Below, piece by piece: positions 29,259 to 33,092 of a stretch of 64,000 nucleotides of DNA. Below the pieces are notes generated by a model. The model was not told the origin of the DNA, did no database searches, and saw only the letters and a program-made list of their open reading frames with translations. The position numbers and the translations under genes are program-made. Each line of letters opens with the position of its first letter. Position 1 is the stretch's first letter. Origin of the DNA: Desulfonauticus submarinus (lineage in GTDB: Bacteria > Desulfobacterota > Desulfovibrionia > Desulfovibrionales > Desulfonatronovibrionaceae); assembly GCF_900104045.1 (NCBI RefSeq), contig NZ_FNIN01000001.1, positions 372,001 to 436,000 on the forward strand, written 5' to 3'.

Positions 29259-30023
29259 TTAAATTTCTAACTCTAAACCAATAGGACAATGGTCAGAGCC
29301 ATAAACATCACTTTCAATCCAAGCTCTCTTAACCTTGTCCTTTAACTCCATTGACACAAAAAAATAATCTATACGCCATCCAGCATTTCTTTCTCTTGCC
29401 TTAAATCTATAGTCCCACCAGGTATAATGCCCTCCTTCTTGGACAAATAGCCGAAAAGTATCAACATATCCACTCTCAACAAATCTATCTAACCATTTTC
29501 TCTCCACTGGTAAAAACCCAGACCTTTTCTCATTTTGTTTAGGATTTTTCAAGTCTATTTCTCGATGAGCTGTATTAAAGTCTCCACAAGCTATAATCGG
29601 CTTACTCTTTCTCAATTCTTCACAATACTTTAAAAAATGTTCATAATATCCTAATTTAAATTTTAGTCTATCCTCGCTCATTTGACCATTTGGAAAATAA
29701 ATATTTAATAGATAAAAATTATCATACTCTAAGGTAATTAACCTTCCCTCACCCTTGAAAGCTTCATCAGGAAAACCCAAAAAATAAGCACATGGTTCTT
29801 TTTTACAAAAACAAACTACACCAGAATATCCTTTTTTAATTTTTGAAGGGTTCCAAATAGCATAATAATCTTTAGGTTTCTTTTCTTCTAAAGAAAGCTG
29901 ATCTGGATGTACTTTGGTTTCTTGCAAACAAACAATATCTGCCTTTCTTTTATAAAACCAGTCCCAAAAACCTTTCTTTAAGATAGCTCGAAATCCATTA
30001 ACATTCCAAGAATATAAAATCAT
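29259..30023 (-). CDS. xth: Exodeoxyribonuclease III
   Basis: The 254-residue AP endonuclease/3'-5' exonuclease has the family motifs SWNVNGFRA (about 5-13), LQETK (about 34-38), ACGDFNTAHREID (about 146-158) and GSDHCPIGLE near the C-terminus with the catalytic Asp-His pair. Length is normal. It acts in base-excision repair. It lies between a phosphoesterase gene (53-base gap) and frdC (21-base gap) on the same strand. Confidence 0.95.
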   Translation of the reverse strand: MILYSWNVNGFRAILKKGFWDWFYKRKADIVCLQETKVHPDQLSLEEKKPKDYYAIWNPSKIKKGYSGVVCFCKKEPCAYFLGFPDEAFKGEGRLITLEYDNFYLLNIYFPNGQMSEDRLKFKLGYYEHFLKYCEELRKSKPIIACGDFNTAHREIDLKNPKQNEKRSGFLPVERKWLDRFVESGYVDTFRLFVQEGGHYTWWDYRFKARERNAGWRIDYFFVSMELKDKVKRAWIESDVYGSDHCPIGLELEI

Positions 30024-30076: not shown

Positions 30077-30736
30077 TTAATGCAATTCTAACTCTAACCT
30101 TCCATCTCTAAAAAATATCTTTACATAACCCCCATCACCAACAGGCCCGGGATTTACTATAAGCGTCTTACCAATTTCATCTATTGCCTTAGACTCATGG
30201 ATATGACCTGTAAGACAAATATCTGGCTGCACTTCCTCAATAAATTCTCGAACAGATTTGCTTCCAACATGAGAGCCACCTAACACTACATCACACTTAG
30301 TATCTAAAGGTGGAGTATGAGACATAAAAATAAGATGTTTTTTATTTTTTGCTTCTAATTTCAATTGTTTTAACCATTTTGCCATTGCATCCTCAGAAAC
30401 TTCTGAAGGAGTATTAAAAGGCGTAAACGTAGAATAACCTACTCCTGCTAAGAAAATTCCTGAATCTAACTCTATAACCCTTAAATGAGTATTTATACCT
30501 AAATCATCTAATACTTCCTCTATCTCAAAACTATCCATATTCCCAATTTGAGCAAAAATTTTAGGGTTATTTTCTTTTAGTTTCTGAAAAAAATTGTAAA
30601 CTTTTTCTTTATTCCCTTTATTAGTAATATCTCCTGATATTAGAATACCAGAAGATTCCTTTAAATTAGGAAGATTAAAAACTTGCTCAAAATCCTCATG
30701 AATATCGCCAAATCCAATCCATAACTTACTTCCCAT
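30077..30736 (-). CDS. Calcineurin-like metallophosphoesterase
   Basis: The 219-residue protein has the dinuclear metal motifs of the family: GDIHEDF, SGDITNKG, IGNMDS (in place of GNHD), MSHTPP and GHIHES. The fold resembles YfcE-type or archaeal phosphodiesterases. The substrate cannot be predicted. It lies between the cysK fusion gene and xth on the same strand with short gaps. Confidence 0.85.
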   Translation of the reverse strand: MGSKLWIGFGDIHEDFEQVFNLPNLKESSGILISGDITNKGNKEKVYNFFQKLKENNPKIFAQIGNMDSFEIEEVLDDLGINTHLRVIELDSGIFLAGVGYSTFTPFNTPSEVSEDAMAKWLKQLKLEAKNKKHLIFMSHTPPLDTKCDVVLGGSHVGSKSVREFIEEVQPDICLTGHIHESKAIDEIGKTLIVNPGPVGDGGYVKIFFRDGRLELELH

Positions 30737-30779: not shown

Positions 30780-33092
30780 TTATTCATTTAACCCATTCTT
30801 TTTACGATGCAATAAAACTACCGTCTCAGTTCCCATATCCACGACTTTATAACCAAAATCTTCTATTTTTTCTCTTAACTTATCACTTAAAGCAAAATTC
30901 TTATTCACTCTAGCTTGCTTTCTTTCTAATAATAATTCTTTTATCTTTTCTGGAGGATTATCATCAAAACTAATGCGCTCCTCTTCAAATAAATCAAAAA
31001 TTTTGTTTAATTCTTGTAAAATATTTTTAATGCTACTTACATCTTCTTTTGTAAGCTGATTATTATTTAAAATATAATTGACTTGTTTAATAAAATTAAA
31101 CAGATTAGACCAAAATAAATGAATTTTAAAACCACTTTCAAATAACTGTCTCAAATCTCCTTTAATTTTCAAAATCAATCCTTCAATCTCTGAACACAAA
31201 TCACCATCTTTAAAAGGTAATACATTTAATTTAAACCACAAATCAGATATTTTTTGATAGTTTTTTTGCCACATTTTTAAACTTTCTAAAGTCAATTTTT
31301 GTCGCTTTTGAATAGAGGAAGAAACTAACCAACCTTTAAGAACCTTTAATTTATCTTCACTTAAAGAAAAAATATCCAAATCAACTTCATCTTTAACACC
31401 TAAAACAACTCCCCATGCTTTAGGCAGCTCTTTATTTTTATTTTTTAATAAAGAGATCAAGTTATCTAGATGAGGAAAAACTTGTCCTTCTCCTGCCACT
31501 ACCATCTGGACTGGTTTTTGAAGAGAAGATAAAATACTTGCTTGTTGTAAATACCAAGAAGGACGCACTTTACCCCATTTTGTATTCAAAACTTCACCTT
31601 CTTTTAGATCTTGCAAACTTGCTCTTTTTAATAAAGTAAAATCTTCAGGGTTATCTTTTAAATACCGTCCTTTTATTATATCCTGCTTTGGCCTTAATTG
31701 AATATCTTTCAAACCAAGATATCCATAATTATCTTGTCTTCGCACATCAAAATACACAGATCTTAATTTTTCATAAGCCTTACCTTTAGTTAAAAGATCT
31801 GTACAAATCTCTAAAGCTATTTCTATACGCTCTGAAAAAAACGCAAATTCTATTTTTTGAAGACCAAATTTTTGGCATACCTTAGCCAATTCTTTTTTAC
31901 TTTCTCTAATAAGATCCTCTCTGCTAACCTTTTTCAAACGACAATAATTTAAAGTTCTATCATCAAAATCCGAAATCCCTACTATTACTATACTTTCAAT
32001 TCCTATATGCTGAAAATACCTTGCTAAAACTTCTAAAAAAACAATTCTTCTCCAGGCACTTAAATTCTTTAAATCATCTAAAGTGGGCCCAAAAGTAAAA
32101 AAATTAAAAGCATTATCTTGAGGACATAGCAAAACTTTCTTACCATCTAGTCCAACAAATTCAATTCCCCTCTTCTCTGGAGATAAAAATAGAGAAGTAC
32201 TTAAATAACGTTCACCACTATCTGGAAAAATAGTTACTATTATTCCATTTTCTATTCTTTTAGCAACTTTAATAGCCCCAGCTAAGGCAGCCCCTGAACT
32301 CATACCAACCAATAAACCTTCTTCTCTAGCTAACCTACGACACAGTTCAAAAGCCTCTTCATCCTCTACTCTTAAAATCTCATCAACTAAATCAGGATTA
32401 TAAATACCTGGAGGATATGATTCTTGCATATTCTTAAGACCTTGAATTTTATGTCTAAGTCCTGGTTCAACAGCTATGCATTTTATTTGGGAATCAACTT
32501 CTTTTAGATATTTTGTTACTCCCATTACAGTTCCAGAAGTGCCTAAACATCCTACAAAATGAGTAATCTTTCCCCCTGTCTGTTGCCAAATTTCGCTTCC
32601 AGTGTGTTTATAATGAGCTTCTACACAAGCCTGGTTGTTATATTGATCCATAAGAATATACTTATTTGGATATTCCCTTGCTAATCTATAAGCTTCTTCT
32701 ATTGCCCCATCTGTACCTAAATGAGCTGGCGTAAGAACTAACTTTGCTCCATAAGCCTGTAAAATACGTTTTCTTTCCTCAGAAGCAGACTCAGGCATTA
32801 TAAGCATTAATCTGTATCCTTTTACTGCACAAACCATTGCCAAGCCAATACCCGTATTACCACTTGTTGCTTCAATAATAACTTTATCAGAAGTAATTAA
32901 GCCACTAGACTCTGCAGCTTCAACCATTGCCAAAGCAGCCCTATCTTTAATAGATCCACCAGGATTAAACGCCTCTAATTTTGCCAAAATTCTCACACCA
33001 CTTTTAAACCAAACCTTTTTTATTTCTATTAAAGGAGTATTTCCTATAAGATCTAGAAGAGTTTGCACTTGAATTTGATTTTGGTTATACAC
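30780..33092 (-). CDS. Cysteine synthase fused to a catalytically degenerate cysteinyl-tRNA synthetase-like domain
   Basis: The 770-residue protein has two parts. Residues 1-305 are a complete O-acetylserine sulfhydrylase with the PLP lysine at 49 (GGSIKDR), TSGNTG (76-81) and GLLVGMSSGAA (259-269). Residues 325-765 align with cysteinyl-tRNA synthetase end to end: FGPTLDD for CGPTVYD, SDFDDR for TDVDDK, RPSWYLQQAS for RPGWHIECSA and a CysRS-like tail (NFALSDKLREKIEDFGY). The zinc cysteines are replaced (Phe334 and near Gln516), HIGH reads NLSA (343-346) and KMSKS is absent, so it should not charge tRNA. The start is GTG. A sensor or channelling role is possible but unproven. Confidence 0.88.
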   Translation of the reverse strand: MYNQNQIQVQTLLDLIGNTPLIEIKKVWFKSGVRILAKLEAFNPGGSIKDRAALAMVEAAESSGLITSDKVIIEATSGNTGIGLAMVCAVKGYRLMLIMPESASEERKRILQAYGAKLVLTPAHLGTDGAIEEAYRLAREYPNKYILMDQYNNQACVEAHYKHTGSEIWQQTGGKITHFVGCLGTSGTVMGVTKYLKEVDSQIKCIAVEPGLRHKIQGLKNMQESYPPGIYNPDLVDEILRVEDEEAFELCRRLAREEGLLVGMSSGAALAGAIKVAKRIENGIIVTIFPDSGERYLSTSLFLSPEKRGIEFVGLDGKKVLLCPQDNAFNFFTFGPTLDDLKNLSAWRRIVFLEVLARYFQHIGIESIVIVGISDFDDRTLNYCRLKKVSREDLIRESKKELAKVCQKFGLQKIEFAFFSERIEIALEICTDLLTKGKAYEKLRSVYFDVRRQDNYGYLGLKDIQLRPKQDIIKGRYLKDNPEDFTLLKRASLQDLKEGEVLNTKWGKVRPSWYLQQASILSSLQKPVQMVVAGEGQVFPHLDNLISLLKNKNKELPKAWGVVLGVKDEVDLDIFSLSEDKLKVLKGWLVSSSIQKRQKLTLESLKMWQKNYQKISDLWFKLNVLPFKDGDLCSEIEGLILKIKGDLRQLFESGFKIHLFWSNLFNFIKQVNYILNNNQLTKEDVSSIKNILQELNKIFDLFEEERISFDDNPPEKIKELLLERKQARVNKNFALSDKLREKIEDFGYKVVDMGTETVVLLHRKKNGLNE

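Follow-up and report, generated by a model that had tools for sequence, protein, structure and literature searches.

A cysteine synthase fused to a degenerate cysteinyl-tRNA synthetase in Desulfobacterota, with a putative tRNA-Cys-reading role for the fused domain

In GCN2, an enzyme carries a fused HisRS-like domain, a pseudo-synthetase whose readout is through tRNA. A related case is HisZ, a paralogue of HisRS without adenylation, which regulates HisG (PMC9437257). The CysRS* of Desulfobacterales, encoded by cysS*, is active on the selC* tRNA, lacks the anticodon-binding domain and is linked to selC*/selB*; changes in its CP1 region permit the reading of an altered acceptor pair (PMC7609411). 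In E. coli CysRS, G34 of tRNA-Cys is contacted by residues R423, R427, W432 and D436 (PMC12684709).

We analyzed a gene located within a 64,000-nucleotide stretch of the genome of Desulfonauticus submarinus (referred to below as the window), whose product combines a complete CysM-type cysteine synthase with a full-length CysRS fold that lacks the catalytic signature (Table 1). No earlier description of this fusion was found in the literature searched, which consisted mostly of papers available without subscription.

Architecture, distribution and genomic context of the fusion

The original prediction described a complete cysteine synthase followed by approximately 440 residues that follow CysRS. 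Domain profiles located both halves, namely PALP at residues 14-291 (6e-73) and tRNA-synt_1e, the CysRS catalytic domain, at residues 326-547 (82 bits against a cut-off of 27). The N-terminal half also passes the NCBIfam profile cysKM (TIGR01136; 381 bits against a cut-off of 344), and among solved structures E. coli CysM is closest to it. It contains the PLP lysine and the TSGNTG and phosphate loops of the CysK/CysM enzymes (PLP fold II). Lys49 and the residues of the TSGNTG and GTSGT loops are invariant in the family alignment A2; SSGNTG replaces TSGNTG in a few other fusion members. Judged by its motifs, the synthase half is competent.

The C-terminal half aligns by sequence over 430 residues (its residues 15-444) to a solved CysRS (8qhp, 6e-25). 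The best PDB match of its AlphaFold model (pTM 0.84, pLDDT 84) was, over the whole length, the E. coli CysRS-tRNA-Cys complex (1u0b, 5e-20), and MshC (3c8z) was among the best structural matches. The CysRS identity of this half was therefore upheld in both length and fold, with the exception of the claimed CGPTVYD motif, which reads FGPTLDD. The two-domain model reached a pTM of 0.62, and the orientation of the synthase relative to the CysRS-like arm is uncertain there.

Table 1. Features of the fusion gene (nucleotide positions refer to the window, residue numbers to the encoded protein)
Feature	Residues	Position	Strand	Remarks
Whole fusion gene		30780..33092	-	One open frame, 770 aa, GTG start
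CysM-type cysteine synthase domain	8-302	32187..33071	-	Lys49, TSGNTG loop and GTSGT loop intact
GLKNM motif	218-222	32427..32441	-	Found in 73/73 fusions checked, in this or a closely similar form
CysRS-like domain	325-764	30801..32120	-	Profile, sequence and structure matches
Degenerate HIGH site, NLSA	343-346	32055..32066	-	Joint alignment
Family-specific motif YEKLRSVYFDV, CP-like region	440-450	31743..31775	-	Family alignments
Family-specific motif NPEDFTLLKRASLQDLK	481-497	31602..31652	-	Family alignments
Family motif WGKVRPSWYLQ	506-516	31545..31577	-	Next residue, Q517, at the position of zinc ligand C209
KMSKS deletion point	about 566-571	31380..31397	-	Joint alignment
Anticodon-binding domain	713-764	30801..30956	-	R724, R728, F733, D737, R740, D752

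A search for the two-domain architecture revealed that it is not a one-off. At a cut-off of about 1e-66, a level at which two genomes (G114 and G394) are doubtful, the fusion was detected in about 154 of the 395 Desulfobacterota genomes sampled (about two fifths), and most of the window's relatives carry it. The C-domains of the fusions form a single clade, with 100/100 support, apart from the true CysRS. Relatives of the arm were found by an alignment scan at 501 loci of the GTDB collection; a single-sequence scan of the genome contigs gave no matches. The matches listed come from Desulfovibrionales, Desulfobacterales, Desulfarculus and further deltaproteobacterial lineages, the nearest relative with a name being Desulfonauticus sp. 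38_4375. The strong matches listed lie in reading frames that encode at least about 740 aa, which indicates that the arm occurs fused and not alone. The fusion and dsrA were present together in 133 genomes, the fusion only in 21, dsrA only in 57 and neither in 184 (OR 20, kinship being ignored). One genome of the window's genus (G001, 96% complete) carried a true CysRS only and no fusion, due to either loss or an assembly gap.

As the original prediction supposed, a canonical cysS is present elsewhere in the window's genome (G000:C1:49617, 479 bits), with HIGH, KMSKS and the CCHE zinc ligands intact. A separate canonical cysS also occurs in nearly every fusion genome, including the complete ones checked. 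For the window's genome and these complete ones, the possibility that the fusion is the sole CysRS of the cell was therefore rejected; some incomplete genomes are doubtful in this respect.

Clustering of the neighbours over 119 loci revealed lineage-local genes only, such as those for a metallophosphatase and exonuclease III in Desulfohalobiaceae-type loci, and the idea of an operon partner was rejected on these grounds; several neighbour clusters in GC-rich loci resemble antisense artefacts. In the window, the metallophosphatase (30077-30736) and exonuclease III (29259-30023) genes are placed after the fusion on the same strand, and in 17 Desulfohalobiaceae-type loci the metallophosphatase gene is directly downstream of the fusion. 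Neither a tRNA-Cys gene nor a T-box was found near the fusion, and no tRNA genes were found in the window. In several Desulfobacterales-type loci, a tRNA-Ser pair (GCU, UGA) in opposite orientation adjoins the fusion or is located 4-5 kb from it (L145:4116-4446, L155:5420-5642, L146:11395-12010 and L156:12386-12672); a tRNA-Cys gene was never found in these places.

Decay of the catalytic site and retention of the anticodon-binding residues

The C-domains of 73 fusions were aligned jointly with E. coli CysRS and with 21 true CysRS from the phylum. This confirmed that in the window protein HIGH is replaced by NLSA, KMSKS is missing and both zinc cysteines are gone: the ligands C28, C209, H234 and E238 correspond to F, Q, H and L, respectively, and only H234 is kept. 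The catalytic and zinc-binding features of an active CysRS are thus lost from this protein, which retains the fold, including the anticodon-binding domain. In the family as a whole, the two HIGH histidines occur together in 0 of the 72 aligned members, and an intact HIGH/KMSKS pair is likewise found in 0/72, in keeping with the predicted dead paralogue.

The individual elements of the site have been lost to a different extent. Basal members retain H37 of HIGH, KMSRS is confined to some basal members, and the complete CCHE zinc set is present in 12/72 members, mostly on deep branches. HIGH, KMSKS and the zinc site are all lost in the window's order, where three of the four zinc ligands are gone in all 46 Desulfovibrionales members. 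The catalytic site thus decays gradually along the tree, with basal members still possessing the zinc site and KMSRS. In one member (L221, genome G136) the second HIGH histidine is kept and the first is lost (GLGH), which suggests inactivation by different routes.

The residues R724, R728, F733, D737, R740 and D752 of the anticodon-binding domain correspond to E. coli R423, R427, W432, D436, R439 and D451. The R423 position is occupied by R in 73/73 arms, R427 by R or K in 71/73, W432 by an aromatic residue in 73/73 and D436 by D in 73/73, and the R439 and D451 positions are likewise invariant among the fusion arms. For positions invariant in true CysRS, mean retention is 0.86 in the anticodon-binding domain versus 0.45 elsewhere (Mann-Whitney p=0.0009). 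The arm of Desulfovibrionales is the most diverged, still with its anticodon residues kept, and the corresponding values for this order alone are 0.83 and 0.36 (p=0.0016). A looser permutation test restricted to three G34 positions was borderline (p=0.04 to 0.05). The R423-D436 and R439-D451 pairs could instead be structural salt bridges.

A second conserved block, located in the CP-like region, comprises YEKLRSVYFD, DFTLLKR, LxDLK and WGNVRPSW and adds conserved basic residues. By analogy with the CP1 changes of CysRS*, this block may face the acceptor end of the tRNA. Full constraint on the arm is restricted to this block and the tRNA-reading end. Many columns of the arm are invariant, and identity to the window's arm drops to about 30-45% within the order.

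Predicted substrate and proposed function of the arm

K220 of the GLKNM motif occupies the position of Arg220 in M. tuberculosis CysM (ALRNM; the fragment was compared with 3dwi/3dki, Arg being residue 220 in the 3dwi chain), and the residue is basic in 73/73 fusions. Arg220 is the determinant of O-phosphoserine use in that enzyme. The window genome's own free CysK contains GIGAG where the fusion has GLKNM.

A cysE match was absent in 75 of the 154 fusion genomes versus 53 of the 241 others (OR 0.30, p=5e-8, kinship being ignored), absence being called with one HMM; O-acetylserine could also be supplied by acetyltransferases of other families. Among 20 near-complete fusion genomes, 12 contain a second cysK and cysE, one contains a second synthase without cysE, and seven contain neither, the fusion being the sole cysteine synthase in these seven. 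The cysE-less fusion genomes checked carry phosphoglycerate dehydrogenase, and SepCysS was not found in the ten genomes tested. The competent motifs, GLKNM and the frequent absence of cysE suggest that the fused synthase is very likely able to work independently of CysE; its most plausible substrate is O-phosphoserine. The missing phosphoserine phosphatase of D. vulgaris (PMC5764234) may bear on the use of this compound in the group. In the complete Desulfovibrionales genomes checked, including that of the window, both cysE and a free cysK are present, which weakens the rationale for a built-in sensor in this order.

The loss of the catalytic signature, combined with retention of the anticodon-reading residues, suggests that tRNA-Cys probably sets the cysteine supply. 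The reading that we favor, and to which we would give nearly even chances, is that of a CysE-independent, probably O-phosphoserine-using synthase that is tuned by a tRNA-Cys-binding pseudo-CysRS arm. The enzyme would form cysteine from O-phosphoserine and sulfide, and the disabled CysRS would act as a built-in sensor arm, gripping tRNA-Cys by the anticodon-binding domain and the family-specific, basic CP-like region. Binding of tRNA-Cys (probably uncharged) would make the attached synthase more or less active, cysteine output thereby tracking the demand for Cys-tRNA; activation by the uncharged form would be the physiologically sensible direction of control. In the O-acetylserine route, feedback by cysteine normally acts on CysE. 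With no CysE, and with a precursor shared with serine, the synthase would become the committed step and would need a sensor of its own. It is possible, though we would lean against it, that the fusion represents a phylum-wide bacterial device that equips a metabolic enzyme with a fused pseudo-synthetase for reading tRNA-Cys directly and thereby provides cysteine feedback in a CysE-less O-phosphoserine route.

The retained anticodon site and the co-occurrence with dsrA (OR 20) would also suit a scaffold or channel, in which the arm holds tRNA-Cys or the true CysRS beside the synthase and new cysteine is charged at once, with no allostery; so would the toxicity of cysteine and the plentiful sulfide in sulfate reducers. 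However, competition between such an arm and CysRS for the anticodon would be expected, the fusion and cysS genes are unlinked and the neighbourhood revealed no conserved operon partner, and we consider this arrangement unlikely. If the arm were instead a sensor like HisZ (PMC9437257), it would bind cysteine (in the zinc pocket of basal members) and inhibit the synthase, the anticodon domain serving for stability only. The 12/72 members with an intact CCHE set are consistent with this, but the loss of three zinc ligands in 46/46 Desulfovibrionales members and the retention in all members of the anticodon-reading residues, the stacking aromatic included, make it distinctly unlikely. Free cysteine was one of the two signals named in the original prediction, the other being Cys-tRNA. 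Its sensing by a zinc pocket is unsupported for the window protein, given the lost ligands, and is possible for the members with an intact CCHE set; tRNA-Cys is the favored signal, in view of the kept anticodon residues. The predicted dead paralogue has thus stood, and its regulatory role is put forward here as a proposal.

It is improbable that the arm is a mere module for oligomerization or stability, i.e. a ligand-free relic. The free degeneration of the catalytic site and the low identity within the order would agree with this, but the arm contains many invariant columns and family-specific motifs, its anticodon site is intact across the phylum, and it is never lost among the strong matches listed. 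A still catalytic arm, which would activate cysteine or a precursor, or perform tRNA-dependent synthesis on a tRNA-Cys-bound precursor, is very improbable. In its favor, basal members hold KMSRS, H37 and the zinc site, and the SepRS/SepCysS route likewise has O-phosphoserine as its precursor (PMC5424206); against it, both HIGH histidines occur in 0/72 members, all three sites are lost in the window's order, a separate cysS is present and SepCysS was not found in the ten genomes tested. An active synthetase or a SepCysS-type route was accordingly rejected.

Implications and comparison with described systems

If the proposed function of the arm is correct, it would explain cysteine synthesis without serine acetyltransferase in many sulfate reducers, as well as the restraint of cysteine production amid abundant sulfide. 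The graded decay, in which an intact HIGH is gone everywhere, KMSKS and the zinc site have gone from some lineages and the anticodon site is never lost, would form a natural record of a synthetase becoming a putative sensor. The fusion genes are probably annotated merely as cysteine synthase or cysteine-tRNA ligase, and this may have introduced errors into the pathway predictions and cysS counts of these bacteria.

Several described systems share part of this design. (i) CysRS* is a divergent second CysRS of the same phylum, but the fusion is its reverse: the site is dead, the anticodon-binding domain is kept and the arm is joined to a synthase, while the neighbours differ and the window contains no tRNA gene. 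(ii) MshC, the mycothiol cysteine ligase, is a CysRS-fold paralogue acting outside translation; in contrast to the arm, it is an active ATP-dependent ligase, tRNA-independent and unfused. (iii) M. tuberculosis CysM shares the CysM-type domain and the basic residue of the LRNM/LKNM motif, but has no synthetase arm and contains Arg where the fusion, with its putative use of O-phosphoserine, has Lys. (iv) SepRS/SepCysS couples O-phosphoserine, cysteine and tRNA-Cys, by enzymes different from those of the fusion (PMC5424206). (v) GCN2 likewise joins a pseudo-synthetase to an enzyme, but is a eukaryotic kinase controlling translation, whereas the fusion is a bacterial biosynthetic enzyme in which the tRNA readout is putative.

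The likeness to HisZ, whose regulatory side is putative for the arm, lies in a synthetase paralogue that has no intact adenylation site and is attached to the enzyme that makes its own amino acid. HisZ is a class II protein of HisRS origin, a separate subunit, and senses histidine; the arm of the fusion is of class I and CysRS origin, is covalently joined to the cysteine synthase and has kept the anticodon-binding domain. If the proposed mechanism holds, the fusion would represent a biosynthetic enzyme of bacteria that carries a tRNA-reading domain of its own and corresponds, in a single chain, to HisZ-HisG.
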